A stretch of 44,423 nt of DNA from a virus. A model generated the notes under the pieces. The model saw nothing but the letters and a program-made list of their open reading frames with translations. It searched no databases and was not told the DNA's origin. Of the stretch, positions 1 to 44,423 are shown piece after piece (the stretch's first letter is position 1; the number at the start of each line of letters is the position of its first letter). The position numbers were made by a program, and so were the translations under genes. The stretch covers positions 1 to 44,423 of IMG/VR virus record IMGVR_UViG_3300043172_000201; one strand, given 5' to 3'.

Positions 1-195
1 GCTTACCGTGTTCCAACAGGGCAACCATGACGCATGGATTGAGAGGTGGGCTGTGCGGGGCGGGGCTAAGAGCCAGGCAATACACAGCCTTGTGTCGCTA
101 AAGGAACACTTCGCCAAGGACAGGGCTAGGTTTATTTGGATGCCAGAGTACGGAATGCCCATTAAGCTCCACGACAAGCTAAACTGTGTTCACGG
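1..195. repeat. Terminal overlap, left copy
   Basis: Bases 1-195 match 44229-44423 except at position 127 (T versus A) and 136 (T versus C). Both are silent third-codon changes (Ala, Ile) in the phosphoesterase. This looks like assembly overlap of a circular map from a mixed population, rather than an exact terminal repeat. Confidence 0.9.
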
Positions 196-4104: not shown

Positions 4105-4762
4105 GAACCATGTAAAGAGCTAGTTGCCCAGTTCCCGCAGCCGAGCGGGGTGAGCCTGTGGTATTCGGTGTTATACTGCTGTGGGCTTTAAAATAGAATA
4201 ACAGTTAGGGTTTTGAGCGTAGTTTAACAGGTCGCAGCCAGCGAGGTGACTGTCCTCAAGGTGAGCAGCAAAAGAACGGTCGCCGTCGAGCGATAAATGT
4301 GTAGTCAGGCCAGCTACATCGCGGATAAGCCTTTTACAATAGAATAATGCTTAAAGCGGCTAAAATAGGTGTATCTGGTTACCTGCGGGAATCACCGAGG
4401 TACTAAAGTATCGAGACACGGCCAGAAGTCGTTTTAGACAAGTTAATACGGTGTATACGTGTGCAATCGGAGCACGGTTATAGAGAGCTTGTAGTGCGGG
4501 AGCTATTTATGACGATGAAGCGGGTTCGACTCCAGCTTTACACTTTTATATAATTGATTCAGAGTAGTACCTGTACTATGTAGGCTCTCAGGGGCAAACA
4601 GGAGACACTGACGGCGAAATAAGGCCGTTTCCACACAAAGACCTGACTGGTCACATCCCGCACTGCTAAGTCAGGCCACCGCCGAGCGTATTTTGGGCAT
4701 AGTATGGTGAGCAATACGCGGGGATTGATACGGTCGACCTTTATACGGGTCAATTTTAACAA
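4105..4762 (+). ncRNA. Candidate large structured RNA with T-arm-like element
   Basis: No convincing gene lies in this stretch. Hairpins follow one another: CCCGC/GCGGG (4134-4149), GGTAT/ATACT closed by GCC/GGC (4153-4187), GAGG/CCTC (4244-4258), GCGA/TCGC stacked on TGTAG/CTACA (4290-4322), GGTAC/GTATC with TAAA loop (4399-4412), GTGC/GCAC (4461-4475). A T-arm-like stem-loop with TTCGACT loop (about 4518-4538) is followed by CTTTACA, which can pair with TGTAAAG near 4110 and so close the first 435 bases. Further on: TAGTA/TACTA (4564-4577), CCTGACT/AGTCAGG (about 4642-4675), GCGTATT/AATACGC (about 4685-4719). Such density suggests an ornate phage RNA of the GOLLD or ROOL kind. Identity and exact ends are inference. 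Confidence 0.5.
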
Positions 4763-4787
4763 TTTCCTCCTTTAATTAGGGGGAAAT
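4762..4787 (+). promoter_or_regulatory. Strong hairpin containing an anti-Shine-Dalgarno-like strand
   Basis: ATTTCCTCC (4762-4770) pairs with GGGGGAAAT (4779-4787) around a TTTAATTA loop, 9 bp with one G-T. The left arm with its loop reads CCTCCTTTA, like the 3' end of 16S rRNA. It closes the structured non-coding region. No T run follows, so a terminator is unlikely. Confidence 0.4.
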
Positions 4788-4852
4788 CCACCTATCTCCC
4801 ATTACCGGGTCAGTATAAAGGCGCAACACTAACATAAGGCCAGCAATGCATC

Positions 4853-5032
4853 ATGCAGAACATAGACCAGATAGTCGAAGCAGTATCAGCCTTACAACTA
4901 TCATTCACCTTTTTAAAGTCTGATGCTGAGGTTGCAACACCCCGGAAGCTCATGGCTAAGCTAGAGCAGTTCAGGGACTTGGCCTGTGATGTGGCTGATG
5001 CGTGTGATAGCAAGATTCAAGGTTTAAAATGA
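4853..5032 (+). CDS. Small hypothetical protein, 59 aa
   Basis: 59 aa beginning MQNIDQIVEAVSALQ, an amphipathic, mostly helical protein of normal composition. A weak AAGG precedes the start at about 13 bases. The stop overlaps the next start (ATGA at 5029-5032), which supports both being translated. It is the first gene after the structured RNA region. No family recognised. Confidence 0.6.
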   Translation: MQNIDQIVEAVSALQLSFTFLKSDAEVATPRKLMAKLEQFRDLACDVADACDSKIQGLK

Positions 5033-5145
5033 CCGACAACCAGATAATCGAATACATGAAACAAAACCCCGACAAGGCCGAGCAGGCATGGGCAGAAGTG
5101 CTTGCTGAAGAGGTTGAGCGGGGTTGTATCAATAATTGTTTTTGA
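5029..5145 (+). CDS. Small hypothetical protein, 38 aa
   Basis: 38 aa (MTDNQIIEYMKQNPDKAEQ start), acidic and helical, ending in CINNCF. Coupled by an ATGA overlap to the 59-aa gene. No family recognised; coding status rests on the overlap and composition. Confidence 0.5.
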   Translation: MTDNQIIEYMKQNPDKAEQAWAEVLAEEVERGCINNCF

Positions 5146-5203
5146 ACAGCAGTAAAGCTCTCGAATTTGAGTCTAATAGCGTGTAGTGCGTCCAAGTGAC
5201 GTT

Positions 5204-5242
5204 AAAAAAGTACCCCCGGTCTAGGTGGGACTAGGCCAGGGG
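5204..5242 (-). terminator. Rho-independent terminator of the minus-strand operon
   Basis: CCCC.GG.CTAG (5213-5224) pairs with CTAG.CC.GGGG (5231-5242), a stem of about 11 bp with one mismatch and a GTGGGA loop. On the minus strand it is followed by TTTTTT (5204-5209). It lies 20 bases past the end of the gene at 5263, so it closes the 8583-5263 operon. Confidence 0.75.
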
Positions 5243-5262
5243 CAAAGTGCAGTGAATACGTG

Positions 5263-5529
5263 TTACAAAACAGGAATTGCGCTTTGGGCTATTTCCACGA
5301 TAAGGTTGGCCAGTTGCTCAGCGGCATTGGGTGAGTATTCGTCCACGTCTTTAAGTTCGGCTAAATTTAGGTCGATGCTGCATTTTTGGCAAAAATAGCA
5401 CGAAACTCCTCGGCTGAAAGTGGAATGCCTTTTGTTGTAGTTGAAGAACGTCCAGTCTTTCGGCGTAGTTTGCCTGCTTTCTTCTGTTGATGTGCGGCAT
5501 TTATCACAAACAAATTTGTATATCAACAT
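5263..5529 (-). CDS. Zinc-ribbon-like hypothetical protein, 88 aa
   Basis: The ATG at 5529 is 7 bases from GAAAGGA; a second ATG at 5532 is too close. It carries CDKC near the N-terminus and CYFCQKC in the middle, a four-Cys pattern typical of zinc ribbons. The C-terminal half is helical. Last gene of the operon. Function unknown. Confidence 0.65.
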   Translation of the reverse strand: MLIYKFVCDKCRTSTEESRQTTPKDWTFFNYNKRHSTFSRGVSCYFCQKCSIDLNLAELKDVDEYSPNAAEQLANLIVEIAQSAIPVL

Positions 5530-5548
5530 CATAAATCCTTTCTAAAAG

Positions 5549-5737
5549 TTAAACTTCATTTAACACCAGCAACACTGCCAGCACGTTCTTGATCGACGCA
5601 GATCGCCCAGGAGTATCAAGGTACAGTCTTAGCCCGTAGAACTCCGAAAGTCGTTCTAAGCGAGCCACAGACAGCTTCTTGACCCTGATACGCTGCCGGA
5701 TGAACTCTTTGATCTCTTTATCGGTTGGTATTATCAT
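5549..5737 (-). CDS. Hypothetical protein, 62 aa
   Basis: Start chosen at ATG 5737, just after GAGGTC and overlapping the stop of the upstream 53-aa gene (ATGA). It reads MIIPTDKEIKEFIRQRIRVK, a basic N-terminal helix followed by a hydrophobic C-terminus (NVLAVLLVLNEV). No family recognised. Confidence 0.55.
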   Translation of the reverse strand: MIIPTDKEIKEFIRQRIRVKKLSVARLERLSEFYGLRLYLDTPGRSASIKNVLAVLLVLNEV

Positions 5738-5895
5738 TTTGACCTCCAGAAGAGCCACCACTTGCGGGTGTAGCTACCGCACGGATAGACTAAGTTTGTT
5801 TCTTCGGGGCTGACATACTTACGGGTCGCAGAACACCAATAGCAATATTTTGAACTTATCCATAGAATATACTTACAATCCTTACATCGTTTCAT
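5734..5895 (-). CDS. Small zinc-finger-like protein, 53 aa
   Basis: 53 aa with CKDC near the N-terminus and CYWC at residues 18-21, a four-Cys ribbon, and an aromatic basic tail (KWWLFWRSK). Both ends overlap neighbours by 4 bases (ATGA), strong support for a real operon gene. Confidence 0.65.
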   Translation of the reverse strand: MKRCKDCKYILWISSKYCYWCSATRKYVSPEETNLVYPCGSYTRKWWLFWRSK

Positions 5896-10153: not shown

Positions 10154-11800
10154 ATGACAAAGATTACCAATGAAATGCTGAGAAAAGTCAACGCCGGTGT
10201 ATGGGCGTCCCAATGGGGCATCAAACTCCAGTCGTGCAAGTTCTCGTTCAAAGACCACGAGTACCAGAAAGAGCCTATGAGTTCCAAGGCTCGGCGTAGA
10301 TGCTACATGAAGGCCACACAGGGCGGTTGGACAGAGATCGAGGTTCTTCGCTCGCTTCATGCTATGATTATGGGCTTCCATCCGCAGGGCGACCTTTATA
10401 TGTTCCCGACTACAGACGATGTGCAGGAGTTTAGTAAGTCTAGGTTTAATCCGTTGATTGTGGCTAACAAGACATCTATTGGTCAATATGTTAAGTCTGG
10501 CGGCAAGGGTACTGACACGGCTTCATTGAAGAAGATTGGCGAGTCCTTTCTTTATCTCCGTGGAGCAAGACTATCGCAGAAGGTTAGTGACCAGAACGAG
10601 AGCTCTAAGATGCGTGGTATTCCGGTTGATTCGGTTAAGTTTGACGAGCTTGACCTTATGGATGAGTCTGTAATAGCTAAGGCTCGCGGCAGGATGGGAC
10701 ACTCAAGGGTTAAAGAAGAAGTTTACCTGAGTAACCCTTTAGTTCCGGGAGAAGGCATTGATAAGATATTTACTCAGTCTGACCAGAGATATTGGTGGAG
10801 GCTTTGTGGTACTTGTGGTAAATACACTTGTGCCGAGAAGTTCTTCATGGAAGACCCAGAGCGGTGTGTGGGTAAAGACAAAGATGGCAAGGGGTATATA
10901 GCCTGTCACAACTGTGGCAGACCTCTTAGTGTCTACTACAAAGAAGGCGCTGGTATTAGTTTTAGAGAAAGCGAGTGGCGGCCTGATGTTCCAAGTAACT
11001 CTGACTTCATGCACGGCTATCAGCACTCTCAGCTAACCTCAGTCTTTAACGACCCGCTGGAGATACTTGACGCGTTCCGTAATCCACCCGAAGGTAATCT
11101 GGCTGATGTTTACCGACTACGGTTGGGTTTGCCTTATATCGCGGCAGAGGACAGGCTGACCAAAGCACAGGTTATAGGATGCTGTGATAAGAACCAGCCA
11201 CTCCATCGACACGCAGGCCCGTGTGCTATGGGTGTGGATGTTGGCAAGATTAAGCATGTAGTGATAGGGCTAAGAACAGGCGACGACCAGTACCAGATTA
11301 TCAAGGTTGCCCAGTTGTCAGAGTGGAAAGACATAATGGACTTGGCCAACAACTTTGGTGTTAAGTCTGCCGTGGTTGACATTCGACCCTACGAGGACAG
11401 CGCAAGGCGATTCCAGAAAGAGGCTAAGTTTAAAACATTCTTGTGCGAGTACAAAGAGAACACTCCACATGGAATTGTTTATAACGACAATACTGGTATA
11501 GTTGCGGTAAATAGAACTGAGATATTCGATGCTACTCATAGGATGACAGTGACTCCAGGCATGTTGACAATACCAAGATATGATGATGCGATTGCCGAGT
11601 TTGCAAAACAGATGTGCGGGGCTTATAAAGTCTTAGAGCTAAACAAGAAAACCGGCACTTCGGTATATAGATACAAGGGCAAGAACGAGCATTACCGCAA
11701 CGCCCTGAATTACTTTAAGCTCGCCGCAAGCGGTGGTAAGATAAGCAGGGTAGGCGCTAACCGCAGCAGACCCAAGAAAGCAAAGAATGCCCAAAGATAA
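10154..11800 (+). CDS. terL: Terminase large subunit
   Basis: 548 aa. ATP-driven DNA packaging motor and nuclease. Near residue 53 MKATQGGWTEIE is in the position of a (degenerate) Walker A; VKFDELDLMDES (about 175) is a Walker B with adjacent acidic residues. A zinc knuckle CGTCGKYTC...CHNCGRP lies near residues 220-260, as in GpA-type large terminases. The C-terminal RNase-H-like nuclease starts at MGVDVGKIKHVVIG (first Asp), then AVVDIRPYED and a later DDAIAE. Length is normal. It works with the small subunit at 8799 and the portal at 11983. Confidence 0.9.
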   Translation: MTKITNEMLRKVNAGVWASQWGIKLQSCKFSFKDHEYQKEPMSSKARRRCYMKATQGGWTEIEVLRSLHAMIMGFHPQGDLYMFPTTDDVQEFSKSRFNPLIVANKTSIGQYVKSGGKGTDTASLKKIGESFLYLRGARLSQKVSDQNESSKMRGIPVDSVKFDELDLMDESVIAKARGRMGHSRVKEEVYLSNPLVPGEGIDKIFTQSDQRYWWRLCGTCGKYTCAEKFFMEDPERCVGKDKDGKGYIACHNCGRPLSVYYKEGAGISFRESEWRPDVPSNSDFMHGYQHSQLTSVFNDPLEILDAFRNPPEGNLADVYRLRLGLPYIAAEDRLTKAQVIGCCDKNQPLHRHAGPCAMGVDVGKIKHVVIGLRTGDDQYQIIKVAQLSEWKDIMDLANNFGVKSAVVDIRPYEDSARRFQKEAKFKTFLCEYKENTPHGIVYNDNTGIVAVNRTEIFDATHRMTVTPGMLTIPRYDDAIAEFAKQMCGAYKVLELNKKTGTSVYRYKGKNEHYRNALNYFKLAASGGKISRVGANRSRPKKAKNAQR

Positions 11801-11990
11801 CACAAGAGAAATCAAAGACGCCATTGTCCGCTCCCACAAATGGGGCAAGTGCGACATAGACGGCGTGAGCATAAGAGACGGCAATGGCGGTATGACTGCC
11901 AAGCCCAGATGTATGTCAGGGTGTAACGCGAGAACATACGTATACAGAGATGGCAAGATGGTATTAAAACAGGAAGCATATAATGGCTGA
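11787..11990 (+). CDS. Small protein between terminase and portal, 67 aa
   Basis: 67 aa, basic, with two Cys (RCMSGCNART). Overlaps the terminase end by 14 bases and the portal start by 8. Small genes in this position occur in many podoviruses. No known function. Confidence 0.6.
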   Translation: MPKDNTREIKDAIVRSHKWGKCDIDGVSIRDGNGGMTAKPRCMSGCNARTYVYRDGKMVLKQEAYNG

Positions 11991-13626
11991 TGAACTCGTA
12001 GTAGATAAGCGGGCACAGGAAATCATATCCCTAGAAGAGCGTGAGCGAGGCAAGCAGTCAAACTTCCGCACTCTATGGCAGGACACGTCAGACCTTAACT
12101 ATCCTCGCGAGAACCGGATTGTAGATAAGACTACTCCCGGCGAGGAGAAGATGAACCGCGTGTATGATACCACGGCTATCACCGAGAGCCAGAATATGGC
12201 ATCAGGTCTTTCCCAAAACCTAGTCCCGCCCGGCCAGAGGTTCTTTGCATTGAAAGCTTCTAATAGAGACATACAAGAGGTTGACGCGGTAAAGAGTTAT
12301 CTCAACAAAGCCACCGAGACAATCCATGACTTGTTGTTTGCATCTAACTTCATGCTTCAGCTTGTGGAGACACTTAGATCGTTAGTGGTGTTTGGCACTG
12401 GCAACCTCTTTTCGGAGTTCAGCCAGCAGACGCAGAGCCTTAACTTCAAAGACTATGCCATTGGCACTTACCAAATACTAGAGAACGCCGCAGGCAGGGT
12501 TGACACTGTAATCTTAAAGTTCCCATTGACTGCAAGACAAGCATCACAGGAGTTCGAGAACCCCGGTAAATCTGTTACCGAAGCATTGGATAAGCCAGAT
12601 TCTTCCGAGAAAGAGTTTGAGTTCATTCATATTGTACGCCCAAGGAAGAAACGAAACCTAAACCTCACTGACAACTTGAACATGCCATTTGAGTCTTTGT
12701 TCGTAGCGGTTAAAGACCAAGAGGTTATTGATGAGGGCGGGTTTGAGGATATTGCTTTCCAAGTCCCACGTTGGCTCAAGTCTTCTACGGAAAAGTATGG
12801 TCGCGGTATTGGCACAGAACTACTTCCGCATACTCGTATGCTACAGAATATCAAAGCTGACCTTAACGAGACCAGCGGTAAATACGCGAGACCTCCACTA
12901 GAGGTTCTTGAGTCGTTTGAGGGTGAAGTTGACATGAGTGATGATGCTCTTAATTATGTTGCAGAGATGGGGTCTATCAAGGCTATTGAGCGTGACGCAA
13001 GAGGCAACCCGATAATCACCGACAAGTTCCTTGAGATGGAACGGCAGGTAACAAGAGATGCATACTTCTCAAGTGCATTCTCTCCGATCACTGGACTCAC
13101 AGGCGACCGCAGGAACATGTTAGAGATACGCCAGAGAGTCTTAGAATCGTTCAAGAAGATAGGCTCTCCTATTGGCAGAATCCAGTCAGAACTATTCACG
13201 CCTACGATTGAACGTGTTGTTGGGCTTTTGCTAGTAAACCGCAAGCTCCCTGAGCCGCCGCCGGAACTACAAGGCCAAGACTTCAAGGTTGAATACATCG
13301 GTGCATTATCTTTGGCTCTGCAAAGTAGTGAAGTTGAAGCAGCCCAGCAGTGGATTGGTGTCATAGCAGAGATTGAACAGATTGAACCTGGCGCTAAAGA
13401 CCACGTAAACTTCGGAGAGACTATTCGCAGGATGGGTAGAACATTCGGTGTTAATGAGGAAGACATTGCCAGCCTTGAAGAAGTTAAGGTAAAGAGGGAG
13501 AAACGTGCCAAGGCTATTGCTGAACAGAAACAGCTAGAAGCTACGGCGATAGCAGGTCAGGCTTATGGGCAAACAACTGGTGCGCCTGAAGAGGGTTCAC
13601 CTGCTGCTGCATTGATGGGGACATAA
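11983..13626 (+). CDS. Portal (head-tail connector) protein
   Basis: 547 aa. The start (LVVDKRAQEIISLEERERGK then WQDTSDLNYPRENRI) and the later QNMASGLSQNLVPPGQRFF are typical of T7-gp8-type head-tail connector portals of podoviruses (Head-tail_con family). Twelve copies would form the vertex ring for DNA packaging and tail attachment. The C-terminal tail is Ala/Gln-rich and helical, as in the family's barrel. Length fits (T7 gp8 is 536 aa). Confidence 0.85.
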   Translation: MADELVVDKRAQEIISLEERERGKQSNFRTLWQDTSDLNYPRENRIVDKTTPGEEKMNRVYDTTAITESQNMASGLSQNLVPPGQRFFALKASNRDIQEVDAVKSYLNKATETIHDLLFASNFMLQLVETLRSLVVFGTGNLFSEFSQQTQSLNFKDYAIGTYQILENAAGRVDTVILKFPLTARQASQEFENPGKSVTEALDKPDSSEKEFEFIHIVRPRKKRNLNLTDNLNMPFESLFVAVKDQEVIDEGGFEDIAFQVPRWLKSSTEKYGRGIGTELLPHTRMLQNIKADLNETSGKYARPPLEVLESFEGEVDMSDDALNYVAEMGSIKAIERDARGNPIITDKFLEMERQVTRDAYFSSAFSPITGLTGDRRNMLEIRQRVLESFKKIGSPIGRIQSELFTPTIERVVGLLLVNRKLPEPPPELQGQDFKVEYIGALSLALQSSEVEAAQQWIGVIAEIEQIEPGAKDHVNFGETIRRMGRTFGVNEEDIASLEEVKVKREKRAKAIAEQKQLEATAIAGQAYGQTTGAPEEGSPAAALMGT

Positions 13627-14846: not shown

Positions 14847-15776
14847 ATGTCTAGTGCCATAAGCACAGTCACAACTGCCTTTACGGAACAGTATTCCGCC
14901 TTACTTTACATCCTCTCGCAGCAGAAAGGCTCCAAATTCCGGGGTCTGGTTCGCAACGAGACTGTAAGTAATGCTCGCAATGCCTATTTCGAGAGGCTCG
15001 GAGTTGCTACTGCCCAAGAGATTACGACTCGTCATGGCGATACGCCGTTGAACGAGATTCCGCATAGTAGACGCAGGCTCACACCTGTGCCCTACAATAC
15101 AGCGACACTCTTGGATACCGCAGATCAACTAAGAATGTTAATTGACCCTAAGAGTCCTTACGCAAACGCGCAGGCGATGGAGCTTGGCAGAATCCAAGAT
15201 GACATTATAATCGCCGCTGCATTAGGTGACGTTGCTACCGGCCAGTCCGGTGGAACCACTATTGCGTTTAAGGATGATTCTCGTAGCATGAATGGTAACG
15301 GGACTATCACTGAGATTGGAACTCTAGCTTCGGCTGGAACCGAGACAGATATTACCCTTGCCAAGATTCTTGCTATGATGAATCTGTTCAACGAGGAAGA
15401 CGTGGACGCTGACATACCTAAGATTTGGGCTGTCAGTCCCCGTGAAATCCAAGTAATGCTTGACATTGAAGAAATCGGAAGTGCTGACTTTAACACAGTC
15501 AAAGCTCTCGCTGCCGGAAAAGTCGAGACATTCAGTGGTTTCAAATTCTTCTGGACAAACCGGCTTCCACTCGATGCGGCTAGTGAAACTACTAGACGCA
15601 CAATCGCATGGGCGCAGGATGGTTTGATTCTCGGAACGGCTGAGAATATCACCGCAAAAATCTCCGAACGAGACGATAAGAACTATTCTGTTCAGGTTTA
15701 CGCCGAACAGGACATGGGTGCTATCCGTCTTGAAGGAGCTAAAGTTCACGAAGCCCTTATGGACCTCGCATCTTAG
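14847..15776 (+). CDS. Major capsid protein
   Basis: 309 aa. The segment with SRRRLTPVPYNTATLLDTAD and MLIDPKSPYANAQAMELGR, then IIIAAALGDVATGQSGG, is the hallmark of a large phage capsid family with the HK97 fold. It follows the scaffold and has an AAGGAACG ribosome site. Length is in the normal range for unprocessed podovirus capsid proteins. Confidence 0.85.
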   Translation: MSSAISTVTTAFTEQYSALLYILSQQKGSKFRGLVRNETVSNARNAYFERLGVATAQEITTRHGDTPLNEIPHSRRRLTPVPYNTATLLDTADQLRMLIDPKSPYANAQAMELGRIQDDIIIAAALGDVATGQSGGTTIAFKDDSRSMNGNGTITEIGTLASAGTETDITLAKILAMMNLFNEEDVDADIPKIWAVSPREIQVMLDIEEIGSADFNTVKALAAGKVETFSGFKFFWTNRLPLDAASETTRRTIAWAQDGLILGTAENITAKISERDDKNYSVQVYAEQDMGAIRLEGAKVHEALMDLAS

Positions 15777-15789
15777 AAAGGAGTATCTT

Positions 15790-16584
15790 ATGAGTGTTAC
15801 AGGTAGAACAGAAGTAGCCGAATTAGTACTTCCTAGAGGTATTATCCAAGGCGACGTTGAACAGCCTTACCAGACTGTTTATGAACAAAGCGTAACCCCC
15901 AATTATTTACTTGGTACGAAACTTGAGTATAACGATGGCAGGGTGTTTAGATATGCCCGTGCCGGAGCGGTTGCTCTTGTAAAAAGTCTGATGTGTCAGA
16001 ACGCTGTAGCTGACGCAGACTATAACAACGAAGACCAGACGGGGAACTTCCCTGTCATTGGTGACACTACTATTATAGTAGAGGTTGCTACGGGTCTTGC
16101 GTTGATTATTGCAAAAGACTTTTTGGCTGGTGGTCAAGTTATGGTAATGAGCGGGCCTGGCATTGGTGATATGTATAATATCATCGGTAGTGAGTTTGGC
16201 TCAACCGATACCAATGTAGCTCTGGTTATCGACTCGCCCATTAGGACAACTTGGACGACTGATACCAATATTGGCATCACACCAAGTCTCTGGTCGAACA
16301 CGTTGGTCTTTGCAACTACCACGTCTGGTACTGCATGTGGTGTTCCGCTAGTGGCTGTTGACGTTGGTTTTTACTACTGGTCACAGACAGAGGGACCGAC
16401 TCCCATTATCTGCGATGCAACAGAAACCACCACAGTTGGTGGTCAAGTTGGCGCACCTGCTACTTTGGGTGTTGCTGGTAGGGTTGGCCTTGCTGTTACT
16501 GTAACCCAGAAATGGGGCACAGCTATGACAGCGGAATCAACCGCAGCTGAAGCAATTCCGATTTGGTTGGACTTGCCAGGTTAA
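15790..16584 (+). CDS. Probable head decoration or accessory protein
   Basis: 264 aa from ATG 15790, with AAAGGAG 9 bases upstream. Beta-rich, Gly/Thr/Val-rich (VATGLALIIAKDFLAGGQVM), few Lys, typical of capsid-binding proteins. It follows the capsid gene by 13 bases. No exact family recognised; assignment is by position and composition. Confidence 0.55.
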   Translation: MSVTGRTEVAELVLPRGIIQGDVEQPYQTVYEQSVTPNYLLGTKLEYNDGRVFRYARAGAVALVKSLMCQNAVADADYNNEDQTGNFPVIGDTTIIVEVATGLALIIAKDFLAGGQVMVMSGPGIGDMYNIIGSEFGSTDTNVALVIDSPIRTTWTTDTNIGITPSLWSNTLVFATTTSGTACGVPLVAVDVGFYYWSQTEGPTPIICDATETTTVGGQVGAPATLGVAGRVGLAVTVTQKWGTAMTAESTAAEAIPIWLDLPG

Positions 16585-16600
16585 TTGTAATTTATTAAGG

Positions 16601-16626
16601 TAGGGCGGGCGTAAAACCCCGTCCTA
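16601..16626 (+). terminator. Hairpin between capsid genes and sugar-transfer genes
   Basis: TAGGGCGGG (16601-16609) pairs with CCCCGTCCTA (16617-16626), 9 bp with one G-T. Only ATATCTT follows, so termination would be partial. The next gene (16633) has no ribosome site between hairpin and ATG, while AAGG lies just before the hairpin, so folding may bring it near the start. Confidence 0.45.
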
Positions 16627-16632
16627 TATCTT

Positions 16633-17193
16633 ATGAAAACATTGTTAATATTATCTTCTGGTAGGGATGTCTGGGACGAAGTAGAAAAGGTTCGTCCTAT
16701 TATTGGTGAGCATGATACGCTGGCTATTAACTATATGATTATACTGTGGCCGGACAAACTAGACTATGCTGTATCATGGCATCACGACCTGTTGCCACGA
16801 ATAGTTGACGTTCGTACCTACAGGAATAAAAAGAATAGGCCGGTTACTATCGGACCAAAACCGTTTGAAGGCGTTGACCGTGTAGGCAGATTTTATGATG
16901 GCGATATTGAATCAAGCGGGATGTACGCTGTTCACGTCGGCGCACACCTTGGCTACGACAAGATTATAATTACTGGCGTTCCGTTTGATTGCGCTGGACA
17001 TTTTTATGACCCGGCAGAAGAACACGATTTGTTTAAGAACTGTGCGACCATTAACGATAAGCACAGATATGTTGATACGGCAAAGAATATGTGGAAGAAA
17101 ATGGCGAAGGAGTATGGAGACAGAGTTAGGGCGGTCTCTGGGAACTTGGCAGATTGTTTCGGAAAGGTAACAGAAGAATGGATGGCGTCTTAG
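16633..17193 (+). CDS. GT42/DUF115-like glycosyltransferase
   Basis: 186 aa. The N-terminus MKTLLILSSGRDVWDEVEK then DTLAINYMIILWPDKLDYAV follows the nucleotide-sugar-type beginning of Maf/DUF115 and GT42 sialyltransferase proteins (a GxS-like loop, then xAxN, then PDxAxS). SSGMYAVHVGAHLGYDKII and TGVPFDCAGHFYD strongly resemble the SG.Y...A..LGY..I...G conserved block of CstII-type sialyltransferases. The adjacent gene makes CMP-nonulosonate, the donor used by both families. It could transfer the sugar to a virion protein or to host surface glycan. Shorter than CstII (about 260-290 aa). Family call is by eye. Confidence 0.5.
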   Translation: MKTLLILSSGRDVWDEVEKVRPIIGEHDTLAINYMIILWPDKLDYAVSWHHDLLPRIVDVRTYRNKKNRPVTIGPKPFEGVDRVGRFYDGDIESSGMYAVHVGAHLGYDKIIITGVPFDCAGHFYDPAEEHDLFKNCATINDKHRYVDTAKNMWKKMAKEYGDRVRAVSGNLADCFGKVTEEWMAS

Positions 17194-17882
17194 CATTTAT
17201 CCCAGCTAGGTCTGGGTCAAAAAGAGTACCCAACAAGAACATTAAGTTGCTTGGTGGAATACCTCTGCTTGCACACAGTATCCTTACGGCCAAGAACACG
17301 CCAAGCATTACGAGAATAATAGTTTCAACTGATTCGCCTGAATACGCAGAAGTGGCAAGAGAGTATGGTGCTGAAGCCCTTTTGAGACCCATAGAGATTT
17401 CAGGGGACAATAATACAATATGTGAAGCGGTAGTGCATTTAACTGAGAACCTAGATGACCTTCCAGAATTTATAGTGCAGTTACAGCCAGCAACTCCGAT
17501 TAGGGACATTGGCGTGGTTGAGGATGCGATAAGAACCTTACAGTCAAGACCAGATATAGACTCGTTGAGTTCAGTGGACGAAACCCCTTGTAATGGATGG
17601 AGATGCAAAACAATAGAGGGCGGGTTCTTAAAAGACTACAAGGACGAGGTTTACAAGATTGGCAACAGGAACAGACAGTATGTGGTAAAGACGTACAACC
17701 AAAATGGATATGTCTATGTATGGCGAACATCAAATATTATAAAGACTAAGAAGATATGGGGAACTAAAACGCTTGCATATAAGACCCCCGTTACAGTTGA
17801 CATTGATACGAACGAAGATTTTAAATACACAGAATTTAAGATAATGTGCAAAGAGAAACAGGCATATTACACAGTGCACTAA
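17178..17882 (+). CDS. neuA: CMP-N-acylneuraminate (nonulosonate) cytidylyltransferase
   Basis: 234 aa from ATG 17178, with GGAAAGG 11 bases upstream. IPARSGSKRVPNKNIKLLGG is the CTP-binding signature of CMP-sialic acid synthetases. VQLQPATPIRDIGVVEDAI matches the second conserved block (LQPTSPLR), RPIEISGDN the RPxExxxD region, and TPVTVDIDTNEDF the metal-binding IDID end. It activates a sialic, legionaminic or pseudaminic-type sugar with CTP. No synthase (NeuB) or epimerase (NeuC) is present, so the sugar must come from the host. It overlaps the glycosyltransferase-like gene by 16 bases, so the two are probably made together. Confidence 0.85.
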   Translation: MDGVLAFIPARSGSKRVPNKNIKLLGGIPLLAHSILTAKNTPSITRIIVSTDSPEYAEVAREYGAEALLRPIEISGDNNTICEAVVHLTENLDDLPEFIVQLQPATPIRDIGVVEDAIRTLQSRPDIDSLSSVDETPCNGWRCKTIEGGFLKDYKDEVYKIGNRNRQYVVKTYNQNGYVYVWRTSNIIKTKKIWGTKTLAYKTPVTVDIDTNEDFKYTEFKIMCKEKQAYYTVH

Positions 17883-17896
17883 TTAAGGAATAGATT

Positions 17897-18664
17897 GTGG
17901 CTTTAATACAAGCTGAAGTAGACATTGCAAACCAAAGCCTAGCCAAGATTGGCGCAAACAGGTTCACGCTAGCGACAGCAGCAGGCGAAGAGGGCGTTGT
18001 ATCAACCCTACTGTTTGCCCAGACCAGAGATTCTTTAACGAGAAGCTATTGGTGGGCATTTCCTAGTACGAGACTAAGACTGGTCAGCGCATGGCTTACG
18101 GCTACTGTGTATACAACCGACCAGTACGTATGGGAAGATTCAGTACCGTACAAGTGTGCAGAGGCTCATACATCAGACGACTTCGCTACTGACCTTGCTG
18201 CTGTTAAATGGGTGGACGTTTCCGCAACAGTCAAAACCGACTTCGGCAATAAATACGACGTACCAGAGACTATGCTACGGTTGCTAGAGTTTTTATACTT
18301 GGACGATGTTATCAAGAGCGTTCGTGGTAAGAGGACATGGCGACTCGAAGGCAACACAATCCTAACCGACGAAGAAGCTGTAGACATTCTTTACATTGAC
18401 CAGCAAATAGACACAACCGAATGGGATTCGTTATTCACAGAACTATTTATACTTCAACTTGCTATAAATCTAACCGGCCCATTAACAGGCGTTGGTAGTG
18501 GTGGATTGAAGTTGAAAGAATTACTCTTGAAAGAGATGCAGATTTTAAAGAAACAAGTCCGTACCATTGCCAGACAAGAGGGTAGGGGCGATGACAGGCG
18601 TTTGTCATATAACGAATCAAGACTTACCAATGGTGGCAGAATAGACTCAAGGTTAGGAAGTTAA
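17897..18664 (+). CDS. Tail adaptor / tail tubular protein A-like
   Basis: 255 aa with a GTG start at 17897 (AAGGAATAGATT upstream). EVDIANQSLAKIGANRFTLA then RDSLTRSYWWAFPSTR is the typical N-terminal signature of T7-gp11-like adaptor proteins, which join portal to nozzle. A small insert (DQYVWEDSVPYKCAEAHTSD) resembles a carbohydrate-binding-like loop seen in some phage tail proteins. Length is above T7 gp11 (196 aa). Confidence 0.8.
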   Translation: MALIQAEVDIANQSLAKIGANRFTLATAAGEEGVVSTLLFAQTRDSLTRSYWWAFPSTRLRLVSAWLTATVYTTDQYVWEDSVPYKCAEAHTSDDFATDLAAVKWVDVSATVKTDFGNKYDVPETMLRLLEFLYLDDVIKSVRGKRTWRLEGNTILTDEEAVDILYIDQQIDTTEWDSLFTELFILQLAINLTGPLTGVGSGGLKLKELLLKEMQILKKQVRTIARQEGRGDDRRLSYNESRLTNGGRIDSRLGS

Positions 18665-18864: not shown

Positions 18865-19285
18865 TGAACTGTGGACAGATTATTATTCTGGAAATCTTCT
18901 CGATGCGTACGTCTTCAAGAAGTCGGACGATGAGGTTTTTGATGAAGCCGATGGCGGTAACACATTTGAAGTGTGGCAAGACGGAAACGTATTAAATTAC
19001 GACATCCCGATGACCGACCAAGGTGACGGGTATTACACGGTTGATTTTCCTGCGGCCATCACGGGCACAGACCCAACCCCGTACAGAGTGGTTATAAAGT
19101 TAAGAGTTGGTGCAAATGCTGCCGTTGGTGATACAAAGCTATCCCAAATGGAGATTATCTGGGACGGCAGCAAAGAGGTTGATATTGGCACGGTGTTCAA
19201 CACGACCACATCAGTAACCAACGTCTACAATGAAGAAGTAAACCCATCTCCGATTACAGTTATTGACGAGACATTAAGACAATGA
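18857..19285 (+). CDS. Hypothetical virion protein, 142 aa
   Basis: 142 aa with a likely TTG start at 18857, GGAAAGAAA upstream, overlapping the previous stop; no ATG suits. Beta-rich with an acidic start (DDEVFDEADGGNTFEVW), consistent with an immunoglobulin-like or capping protein. Precedes the nozzle locus with a 4-base overlap. Confidence 0.6.
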   Translation: MANELWTDYYSGNLLDAYVFKKSDDEVFDEADGGNTFEVWQDGNVLNYDIPMTDQGDGYYTVDFPAAITGTDPTPYRVVIKLRVGANAAVGDTKLSQMEIIWDGSKEVDIGTVFNTTTSVTNVYNEEVNPSPITVIDETLRQ

Positions 19286-20514
19286 GCAATCTGGGCGTAA
19301 CACAATTTAATTCTGGTGAGATTACACCACAGCTTGACGCTGCCAAGCAGCTTGAGAAGTATGCCGGTGGCTGTCGTCGCTTAGAGAACATGATACCAGA
19401 CCTGTACGGTAATTCCACTCGTAGACCGGGCACAGAGTTGATCGTCGCTGGCAATGGCGCGGCTTGTTACTATGAATTTACTGCCGACCCGTCCAAGATT
19501 GGTATTAGTACAATGGAAGACCTTGCCAAGATAGGTAATGACGGCGGATTTCCTTTGGATGGAGACTATGAATTATTGAACAAACTTGACGCCTCTGGGT
19601 TTGGTGTATGGATTCCAATAGGCGATGATGGCATAAACCAGCCAACATCAACTCCGTTCACTGGAACATTTGACGGTAATTTTTTCACCATAAATGGACT
19701 TGTATGCGAACAGCCTCACGGCACAGCAGACTATGGTTTGTTCTCGCAAATAAAAGGTAATACTATTGTGGAAAATCTAGTACTGTCGAATGTTAATTTT
19801 ACAATAGCAGACAATGGAATATGCGGTGGAATTGCTGGGCAGGCGACGGACGACCTCACTTCATACACTACTATTATCAGAAAATGCAAAGTGACGGGAA
19901 CTTTCACTAAGACTGGCGGAAGTATTTTTCCTAGAACTGGCGGAGTAGTAGGTGCTACTGGCAAGGCGTTGACACAAGAGTGTGCGTCCGAGGTGAACAT
20001 TGTTACTATCGGAAATGAAGCCTACTTTGGACTTTGTGGATTAGTGGGAGATATGGGGGCGGGTAAATTTGAAGATTGCTATGCGCAAGGGACATTAAGC
20101 AATTCAACAGACACAGGCAATATAAACCTTCAAGGCCCGTTTGGCGCAGATGTTGCAACTATTGGCACAGCACCGATATACAGAAGATGTTACAGTGCTA
20201 TGACAAACGAGTTAACGGTAGGCGGCACTGGATTCGTTGGTGGATTTCTAGGTAGAGACAGGGTTGGCATTGTCGTAGAATATACAGACAATCACTGGGA
20301 CCAGACCTTAAATCCAACCCTTGACGACAAGGGGGCGACTGCACCATTAGATATAGTCGGTGTTGACGCAGAGACTACAACTGCTATGCAAACCCAATCA
20401 ACTTTTACGAATTGGGATTTCGGCACAATTTGGAAAATGCCTGCCGGTGGTGGCTATCCAGTACACCAATGGACGGAACTATCAGACATTAAGGAGAATT
20501 GCCAAAGTGTCTAA
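19282..20514 (+). CDS. Nozzle N-terminal segment with GLUG-like repeats, copy A
   Basis: 410 aa. The first 55 residues (GVTQFNSGEITPQLDAAKQL then GGCRRLENMIPDLYG and TRRPGTELI) are the N-terminus of T7-gp12-like nozzle proteins, which normally continue into the body. Here it runs instead into a beta-solenoid-like region with GLUG-type units (FTGTFDGNFFTINGLVCEQ, then DYGLFSQIKGNTIVENLVL and GGIAGQ). The protein ends with FTNWDFGTIWKMPAGGGYP. GLUG repeats occur in adhesins and surface proteins. It likely attaches a binding domain to the tail. Paralogue of copy B; ATGA overlaps its upstream neighbour. Confidence 0.75.
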   Translation: MSNLGVTQFNSGEITPQLDAAKQLEKYAGGCRRLENMIPDLYGNSTRRPGTELIVAGNGAACYYEFTADPSKIGISTMEDLAKIGNDGGFPLDGDYELLNKLDASGFGVWIPIGDDGINQPTSTPFTGTFDGNFFTINGLVCEQPHGTADYGLFSQIKGNTIVENLVLSNVNFTIADNGICGGIAGQATDDLTSYTTIIRKCKVTGTFTKTGGSIFPRTGGVVGATGKALTQECASEVNIVTIGNEAYFGLCGLVGDMGAGKFEDCYAQGTLSNSTDTGNINLQGPFGADVATIGTAPIYRRCYSAMTNELTVGGTGFVGGFLGRDRVGIVVEYTDNHWDQTLNPTLDDKGATAPLDIVGVDAETTTAMQTQSTFTNWDFGTIWKMPAGGGYPVHQWTELSDIKENCQSV

Positions 20515-21673
20515 TATAGGCCGAACAAATTTTAATGGTGGCGAGTTTACTCCAAAGCTCGACGTAGGCGTGCGCATTGAGAAGTATGTGAGCGGATGCA
20601 GGCGACTTGAGAATATGATACCTACGGTTTATGGCGTGACAACACGCAGGCCGGGGACTGAACTAATCGTGGCCGGTAATGGGGCAGCTTGTTACTATGA
20701 ACTTACGCCAGACCCGGCAAAGATTGGAATAACGACGGTAACCGAACTCGCTCTTATCGGGAATGACGGTGCATATCCCCTTGATGGTGACTATGAACTT
20801 CTTAATAATTTAGACTTAGACGTAGCCCCATATAACACAGGAACAGGCTGGCCGGGGATAGGTGGAGTTTTTAACGGCGGTAGCGAGTTTGAAGGCACTT
20901 TTAACGGCAACTACTTTACTATCTCGAATATGTTCATAGATAGAGCAGTTGACGGATACGGGCTATTCAGGGCGGTCAGGACGAAATCCGCATCCGTAGC
21001 CACGGTAAGTAATTTAAGGGTAGATGACGCAAACCTAACAGTGGCAGGGTTTTCTGGAGTGATGTATGGGCAAGGCGGAACAACAGCGGCGCACCCTGAG
21101 CCAGTGTTTACAAACTGCTACGTTAGCGGAAGCATTACGGGGGCTGGCACTTTTTTGCAAACTGGCGGCTTTACTGGGAATACATCGGCTACGCACATAA
21201 GATGCGCGGCCGAGGTTACGCTAGACAGAAATGGTAGGCCATTTGGCAATCTAGGCGGGTTTGCGGGAACGAATGACGGCATATATACAGATTGTTACGC
21301 TACGGGTGGAATAACCGGCGCGACTAGTCTTAATATAGCGGCAGGCGGGTTCGGGGCTTCTCTTAACGGAACGCACACAAATTGCTACGTCACTGGACTT
21401 AATGATGTAGTTGACCAGCCACAAGATTGTGGTGGATTCCTTGGTGACGGTGGAACTACGTCGGATTGTTTCTGGGACACAGAAGTCACAACACAGGACA
21501 CAGACTACGCAGGAGCCACGGGGAAGACTACCGCCCAGATGTATGCGCAGGCAACATTTACTAACTGGGACTTTGACGACGTCTGGGAAATAGACGAAGG
21601 TTCTGATTATCCGCGACATCAATGGTCTAGTGAAACAAATATTAAAATACACTGTCAGGCGGTAATAACATGA
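20507..21673 (+). CDS. Nozzle N-terminal segment with GLUG-like repeats, copy B
   Basis: 388 aa from GTG 20507, which has AAGGAGA 9 bases upstream. An ATG-initiated frame from 20360 would overlap copy A and is not favoured. The first 100 residues are close to copy A (shared CRRLENMIP, TRRPGTELIVAGNGAACYYE, NDG.YPLDGDYELLN), so the pair is a tandem duplication. The rest again carries GLUG-type units (FEGTFNGNYFTISNM; GGFTGN; GGFAGTNDGIYTDCYATGG). It ends with IKIHCQAVIT, then overlaps the nozzle body by 4 bases (ATGA). The body would normally be fused here. Confidence 0.75.
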   Translation: MSNIGRTNFNGGEFTPKLDVGVRIEKYVSGCRRLENMIPTVYGVTTRRPGTELIVAGNGAACYYELTPDPAKIGITTVTELALIGNDGAYPLDGDYELLNNLDLDVAPYNTGTGWPGIGGVFNGGSEFEGTFNGNYFTISNMFIDRAVDGYGLFRAVRTKSASVATVSNLRVDDANLTVAGFSGVMYGQGGTTAAHPEPVFTNCYVSGSITGAGTFLQTGGFTGNTSATHIRCAAEVTLDRNGRPFGNLGGFAGTNDGIYTDCYATGGITGATSLNIAAGGFGASLNGTHTNCYVTGLNDVVDQPQDCGGFLGDGGTTSDCFWDTEVTTQDTDYAGATGKTTAQMYAQATFTNWDFDDVWEIDEGSDYPRHQWSSETNIKIHCQAVIT

Positions 21674-43803: not shown

Positions 43804-44423
43804 ATGATACCAGTAGCACTACAAAACAAGATACTTAAATCTATCACGGCTGGCATGACCCACAGGGAAGTGGCGAGGGCTTTTGGTGTCGGGGTTGGAA
43901 CAGTTAGTTCTATCCGCAACTCTATCCCTGCCCCTATTTATGACAAGGGAGTGCTGGACTTAACCCAGATGTTTGAGCCGACCTTTAGAGTGTTTGGGTT
44001 CACGGACATGCACATTCCTAATCACGATCTCTTGGCTACCGAGGTGGCTATGCGGGCGCATGAGGCATTCCAGCCTGATGTCACTATCATAGGCAATGAC
44101 TTCGTAGAGTGTACCCCGTTCACACAACACCCCTTTAATAAGCTCAAAGAGGCGCAGGCTAATGACTTCAAAGATACTACTATCGAGCCTGCCAAGGCTA
44201 TCATAGACCGCATACAGGACAACACTAAGCTTACCGTGTTCCAACAGGGCAACCATGACGCATGGATTGAGAGGTGGGCTGTGCGGGGCGGGGCTAAGAG
44301 CCAGGCAATACACAGCCTTGTGTCGCTAAAGGAACACTTCGCCAAGGACAGGGCAAGGTTTATCTGGATGCCAGAGTACGGAATGCCCATTAAGCTCCAC
44401 GACAAGCTAAACTGTGTTCACGG
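43804..44423 (+). CDS. Metallophosphoesterase with N-terminal HTH, 5' part (continues at 1)
   Basis: From ATG 43804 (AAGGATACTAAC). An N-terminal helix-turn-helix (GMTHREVARAFGVGVGTVSS, residues about 17-36) is followed by the first phosphoesterase motif, FTDMHIPNHD, then the GND motif (TIIGNDFVEC) and GNHD at the end. Joined with 196-505 it gives about 309 aa. The HTH on a phosphoesterase suggests DNA-directed action or self-regulation. Confidence 0.85.
   Translation, partial: MIPVALQNKILKSITAGMTHREVARAFGVGVGTVSSIRNSIPAPIYDKGVLDLTQMFEPTFRVFGFTDMHIPNHDLLATEVAMRAHEAFQPDVTIIGNDFVECTPFTQHPFNKLKEAQANDFKDTTIEPAKAIIDRIQDNTKLTVFQQGNHDAWIERWAVRGGAKSQAIHSLVSLKEHFAKDRARFIWMPEYGMPIKLHDKLNCVH
44229..44423. 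repeat. Terminal overlap, right copy
   Basis: Repeat of bases 1-195 with two silent differences (44355 and 44364). Supports a circular or permuted map. Confidence 0.9.

Follow-up and report, generated by a model that had tools for sequence, protein, structure and literature searches.

A NeuA-type synthetase gene and a transferase-like gene in the virion operon of a metagenomic podovirus: a possible cassette for sialic-acid-like decoration

The window, that is, the whole stretch of DNA analyzed here, is a viral record of 44,423 bases. Its ends are near-identical: the first 195 bp match the last 195 bp at 193 of 195 positions, which makes a complete genome probable. The late (virion) operon holds the terminase and portal genes, then a scaffold-position protein (+ strand) between the portal and major capsid genes, and beyond the capsid a putative accessory protein. 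Two genes, P0002 and P0001, occupy the gap between this capsid accessory gene and the tail adaptor, also on the + strand, as are the adaptor and the other late genes beyond it. The features of the record and the operon are:

1..195, no strand assigned: terminal direct repeat, matching 44229-44423
10154-11800, + strand: terminase, late operon context
11983-13626, + strand: portal, late operon context
14847..15776, + strand: major capsid protein (PF19821, 3.9e-64; phrog_3437, 2e-65)
15790..16584, + strand: putative capsid decoration/accessory protein, with homologues right after the capsid gene in the relatives L004 (32%) and L005 (44%)
16596..16633, + strand: GC-rich hairpin that separates the capsid accessory gene from P0002 and ends on the start codon of the latter (-19.3 kcal/mol, z -3.5)
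16633..17193, + strand: P0002, transferase-like, 186 aa, member of an uncurated phage family (family alignment, profile against the PDB, AlphaFold2, Foldseek)
16948..17010, + strand: P0002 family signature LG-x7-GVP-x5-HFYD, used to find relatives (34-sequence alignment)
17178..17882, + strand: P0001, a 234-aa CMP-nonulosonate synthetase of NeuA/PseF/LegF type (CTP_transf_3; PF02348, 1eyr, motifs)
17897..18664, + strand: tail adaptor (phrog_394, 9e-23; by synteny, it comes after P0002-family genes in many relatives)

A sequence-only reading of this DNA had placed the pair between capsid and tail adaptor genes, and the PF19821 match upstream and the PHROG 394 match beginning at 17897 bear this out. 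From its position, the product of 15790..16584 is likely a capsid decoration or accessory protein, and it is a candidate acceptor. The hairpin before P0002 gives a terminator-like match, though the count of such matches is no higher than in shuffles; it is a possible attenuator or terminator and may hold expression of the cassette below that of the capsid genes. Further downstream, the overlapping late ORFs at 19282-20514 and 20360-21673 both match one protein of L005, which suggests a tandem duplication, and the second of them shows weak GLUG repeats (E 0.025, below the cut-off).

P0001 starts at ATG 17178, with an alternative in-frame TTG at 17154 possible, and follows P0002 with an overlap of 16 bp. 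It had been read as a CMP-sialic or nonulosonate synthetase, and this call is confirmed: the quoted motifs are present, the profile match to PF02348 is far beyond chance (2.1e-26; 93.5 bits, cut-off 22.6), and the protein aligns with NeuA of N. meningitidis (1eyr) at 1.7e-20 over residues 5-222, nearly its full length. The motifs within the gene are:

17202..17240, + strand: PARSGSKRVPNKN, CTP-binding motif, residues 9-21, aligned with 1eyr and fitting PARxGSKxxPxKN
17481..17504, + strand: LQPATPIR (LQPxxPxR), intact, which separates CMP-nonulosonate synthetases from KdsB
17799..17810, + strand: DIDT metal-binding motif, intact

An identity as KdsB was ruled out, the match to KdsB being 1.2e-7 and covering only the N-terminal half, against the far stronger match to 1eyr. 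The best NCBIfam model is the PseF equivalog TIGR03584, though P0001 scores 115.3 bits, under its cut-off of 205.7; NeuA proteins of other viral clusters score similarly against this model, and the scanned viral NeuB proteins lean toward NeuB/NnaB, every one below the cut-offs. Judged by its family and active-site motifs, P0001 is a CMP-nonulosonate synthetase. It shares full-length homology and the CTP-binding, LQPxxPxR and DIDT motifs with NeuA, PseF and LegF, but differs in being phage-encoded, in having no NeuB partner, and in falling below the PseF equivalog cut-off. As had been noted earlier, neither NeuB nor NeuC is found anywhere in the 44.4-kb record, and the earlier conclusion that the sugar would have to be taken from the host follows from this absence.

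P0002 begins with ATG and has no match to any Pfam, PHROGs or NCBIfam model. It is a real gene, since a profile of its phage relatives, with the window sequence left out, recovers it at 1.4e-35. Scans of viral contigs for P0001 and P0002, by single protein or by two sequences, gave no match, the chosen peptides not being conserved. An isolated phage with a relative is Paracoccus phage Pkon1, in which the gene for p38 (E 3e-4) is the next one after that of the major capsid protein. P0002 and Pkon1 p38 served to derive a DNA pattern for LG-x7-GxP-x5-HFxD; verified on both, it found 55 stretches in viral contigs, which yielded 42 family loci and 33 distinct sequences. In the resulting family alignment, A3 (34 rows), positions S95, L106, G107, G115, P117, H123, F124, D126 and G170 are invariant, and N33, H50, R61, W154, R164 and S169 nearly so. 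The conserved residues are mostly polar or glycine, apparently as in a ligand-binding or enzyme pocket.

In searching the A3 profile against PDB sequences, the nine best matches are GT42 or related sialyltransferases, with seven Cst-II entries (E about 0.001), Cst-I (0.01) and another sialyltransferase (0.067) on top; the Cst match is limited to a local segment, SSG...LGY..I.L.G (E=0.001), and the single P0002 sequence reaches 0.12 against Cst-I/Cst-II. For the AlphaFold2 model made with A3 (pLDDT 87, pTM 0.86), the MptE-type HPPK 8sd5 comes first in Foldseek (E 0.0029, prob 0.99, TM 0.45), followed by thiamine pyrophosphokinases, with the Maf transferase 5mu5 further down (prob 0.95). The best matches by E-value are pyrophosphokinases with TM about 0.45, none having E < 0.001, and among the best 50 PDB fold matches listed GT42 is absent and Maf is present. 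Compared with viral models, it matches, among those that carry a name, MptE-like, DUF115 and GT29 proteins and a sialyltransferase from a herpesvirus.

An assignment of P0002 to GT42 was dropped because the position aligned with His188, the catalytic histidine of CstII, is Thr in P0002 (single-sequence alignment); the invariant H123 and near-invariant H50 lie elsewhere. P0002 also goes unmatched by the MptE-like/DUF115 family PF01973 up to E=0.1, whereas neighbors of other viral neuA genes do match it, e.g., at 1e-9. The earlier description as a GT42/DUF115-like transferase survives as a probable fold class, with sialyltransferases recovered by the sequence profile and MptE, thiamine pyrophosphokinases and Maf by the fold; it does not survive for the GT42 catalytic His or the PF01973 match. 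On its profile and predicted model, P0002 is a probable member of the sialyltransferase/MptE/Maf superfamily and a probable sugar-transfer enzyme. In further comparing the proteins, Cst-I and Cst-II share the segment matched by the profile of P0002 relatives but are about 260-290 aa against 186 aa, and the P0002 family has its own signature, GxP-x5-HFxD and then SGxT...LG. The predicted fold may be like that of Maf flagellin nonulosonate transferases and MptE-like PF01973 proteins, although P0002 is a single domain with no flanking Maf domains and no Pfam match. The Maf_flag10 domain itself is reported to resemble Cst-II, and a Maf from C. botulinum takes both Neu5Ac and Kdo (PMC11339370).

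The two closest relatives, L004 and L005, have neither P0002 nor P0001 at the site. In L005 (portal 65%, capsid 73% identical) the accessory gene leads directly to the adaptor, and in L004 (portal 74%, capsid 91% identical) a GDSL-lipase-domain protein and another gene fill the slot. As both relatives do without the two genes, the pair is dispensable; the capsid-adaptor slot is an accessory-gene hotspot. The GDSL-lipase-domain protein (L004:15374-16693) has an N-terminus matching the virion structural family phrog_10356, with a 178-aa protein beside it. An essential assembly role for P0002 was considered and lowered, as relatives with capsids 73-91% identical lack the gene at this site.

Among wider relatives the recurrent order is portal, small protein, scaffold-position protein, capsid, small decoration-like protein, P0002-family gene and adaptor. 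In many related podoviruses, including distant ones, and in the siphophage Pkon1, a P0002-family gene is found directly behind that of the major capsid protein. Among the genes sharing the slot are a GT2 (L160), SAM methyltransferases (L166, L182 and others), and an FkbM methyltransferase plus a sulfotransferase-like protein (L159). NeuA occurs in 0 of the 32 contigs carrying strict P0002-family members other than the window's, thus the family is independent of NeuA. Reverse-transcriptase-like genes separate the P0002-family gene from the tail adaptor in some contigs (L166:7181-8239, L192:8752-9810 and L204, oriented 4652-5830); the one in L204 comes after a protein resembling a diversity-generating retroelement target, making such retroelements in the slot possible.

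NeuA was not found in isolated phages among 50,697 phage records searched with three different NeuA queries, the matches being one metagenomic phage and a bacterial contig, from Moritella, filed among them. In environmental viral contigs, a motif scan gave at least 120 stretches; NeuA is the unusual member of the window's pair, yet it is recurrent in such contigs. The pair had been called unusual for a podovirus structural module, which holds for NeuA and fails for the P0002-type gene, a regular slot resident in related podoviruses. NeuB accompanies NeuA in 15 of 17 viral contigs tested. In a set of 104 viral neuA loci (dereplicated, with model-building loci removed), a sialyltransferase/MptE-superfamily gene is present in 33 and adjacent to neuA in 19, among the matches listed. 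Adjacent superfamily genes lie upstream of neuA in 17 of 20 cases, mostly with a 4-bp overlap, again among the matches listed; an upstream, overlapping transferase-like gene is also the arrangement of the window. With the window left out of its making, the P0002-family profile had 10 matches, of which six are neuA neighbors against a background of 15% (hypergeometric p=0.0012, a value that exaggerates the strength since related contigs were retained). Large glycan islands house many of the other viral neuA genes, together with NeuB, aminotransferase-like genes and several glycosyltransferases, and some of these islands need not involve virions. In the NeuB-NeuA clusters L129, L130, L131, L135 and L136, a 415-450-aa class III aminotransferase-like protein comes right after NeuA and may define an unusual nonulosonic acid.

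Transferase and NeuA pairs beside or inside head or tail genes are present in at least three other lineages, which likewise counts against calling such a pair unusual at structural genes. In one (G053, contigs L113/L209) the order is capsid (phrog_1005), connector-position genes, sialyltransferase, NeuA, NeuB, HAD protein and tail-position genes; the transferase matches PHROG 4603 'alpha-2,3-sialyltransferase' at 4e-20, and the tail-position genes, which include a long tape-measure-like ORF, take their roles from position and length, not from matches. In L103, a portal-like and a prohead protease-like gene (head-gene roles here are a reading of the sequences) are followed by a transferase-like gene (weak, 2.8e-4), NeuA and an HK97-type capsid-like ORF, with no NeuB within the 19-kb fragment. 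In the T4-type contigs L013, L048, L060, L064 and L102 the pair adjoins a gene homologous to a prohead-protease-like ORF and, in contigs that extend far enough, one homologous to a phrog_138 capsid protein. It is possible, if short of probable, that podovirus, HK97-type, PHROG 1005-capsid and T4-type phages have independently put nonulosonic-acid transferase and CMP-synthetase cassettes beside or inside capsid and tail operons in order to cover their own virions with sugars like sialic acid; the window would then be a minimal, scavenging version without NeuB.

Superfamily genes were also observed in two named phages. In Caulobacter phage CcrColossus, gp126 (L215:6064-6714, 'alpha-2,3-sialyltransferase') has a tail protein before it and methyltransferase and glycosyltransferase genes after it; this isolated phage resembles the window in its superfamily gene, but is about 280 kb and has no cytidylyltransferase annotated near gp126. 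In Xanthomonas phage XacN1, two overlapping sialyltransferase/MptE-superfamily genes stand in tandem (L216:4968-6277), followed by a protein reading like a methyltransferase and glycosyltransferase; all are annotated as hypothetical.

As the pair lies amid particle genes, where unrelated phages repeatedly have similar pairs close by, sialic-acid-like sugars are probably placed by the virus on itself or on the host surface. Virion modification, proposed from the sequence at the outset, is retained as the leading reading with the pair inside the virion module. At close to an even chance, the two genes form a nonulosonic-acid activation and transfer cassette in which a host sugar is activated by P0001 and moved by P0002 onto a virion protein. 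P0001 would make CMP-nonulosonic acid from CTP and host nonulosonic acid, and P0002, putatively a small soluble transferase co-translated with it, would move the sugar in the cytoplasm. The acceptor, going by position and fold, would most likely be the major capsid or decoration protein encoded just upstream. Maf provides a likeness, as it works in the cytoplasm with CMP-nonulosonates on a self-assembling protein. Speculatively, the virus would gain particles whose surface is negatively charged and self-like, altering adsorption, aggregation, protease resistance or recognition, and family members in phages lacking NeuA might draw on host CMP-nonulosonate or CMP-Kdo. The capsid-adjacent position, accessory character, glycan-gene neighbors and recurrent pairs are in favor of this cassette; against it are a P0002 family lacking NeuA outside the window, the Thr in place of His188, the pyrophosphokinase fold matches and the missing Pfam match.

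Apart from the Pfam result, these last points would suit a P0002 that is a nucleotide-binding, pyrophosphokinase-like protein, or a head-assembly helper with such a fold, the adjoining NeuA being a chance insertion. HPPK and thiamine pyrophosphokinases head the Foldseek list, and the family is widespread without NeuA, including by capsid genes in siphovirus-type loci with no nearby sugar genes noted. However, sialyltransferases are the sole convincing matches in the sequence-profile search, the family profile marks neuA neighbors in unrelated contigs, the slot neighbors are glycan- and methyl-transferases, and L004 and L005 lack the gene despite otherwise conserved head genes; we regard this explanation as rather unlikely. 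Slightly less likely still is that the target of the pair is the host envelope (LPS, capsule or flagellin), for instance to mask receptors against superinfection or to release progeny from receptor-bearing debris. GT42 and Maf do act on bacterial surface glycans and flagellin (family knowledge; PMC11339370), and the broad glycan islands around other viral neuA genes would fit, but several unrelated lineages have these genes within or next to the late virion operon, no membrane or secretion feature was noted in the short P0002 domain, and superinfection control would be ill served by late expression. An assembly artefact or misbinned host DNA, which the metagenomic origin and the lower GC of the NeuA gene (41.6% against 46.8% for the record) might suggest, is very improbable with phage structural genes on both sides on one strand, the gene overlap, the near-identical ends and syntenic relatives; host contamination was ruled out because of the synteny.

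Virion glycosylation by phage enzymes is already known in a few mycobacteriophages: in the available text of the reports, phage-encoded glycosyltransferases modify capsid and tail proteins of Che8, Corndog and Myrna (PMC12363180, PMC12619734). Those glycosyltransferases differ from the proteins described here, and that text mentions neither nonulosonic acid nor an activation enzyme. Titles, abstracts and selected passages of open-licence papers gave no account of phage virions bearing nonulosonic acids. If the virion cassette proves true, phages would bear a class of sugar that bacteria use on flagella, on capsules and for host mimicry, with a bearing on phage adsorption, the behavior of phages in animals and the unexplained glycan genes of environmental phages. 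It would also give a testable function to an uncurated, capsid-adjacent gene family that has no PHROGs or Pfam entry.
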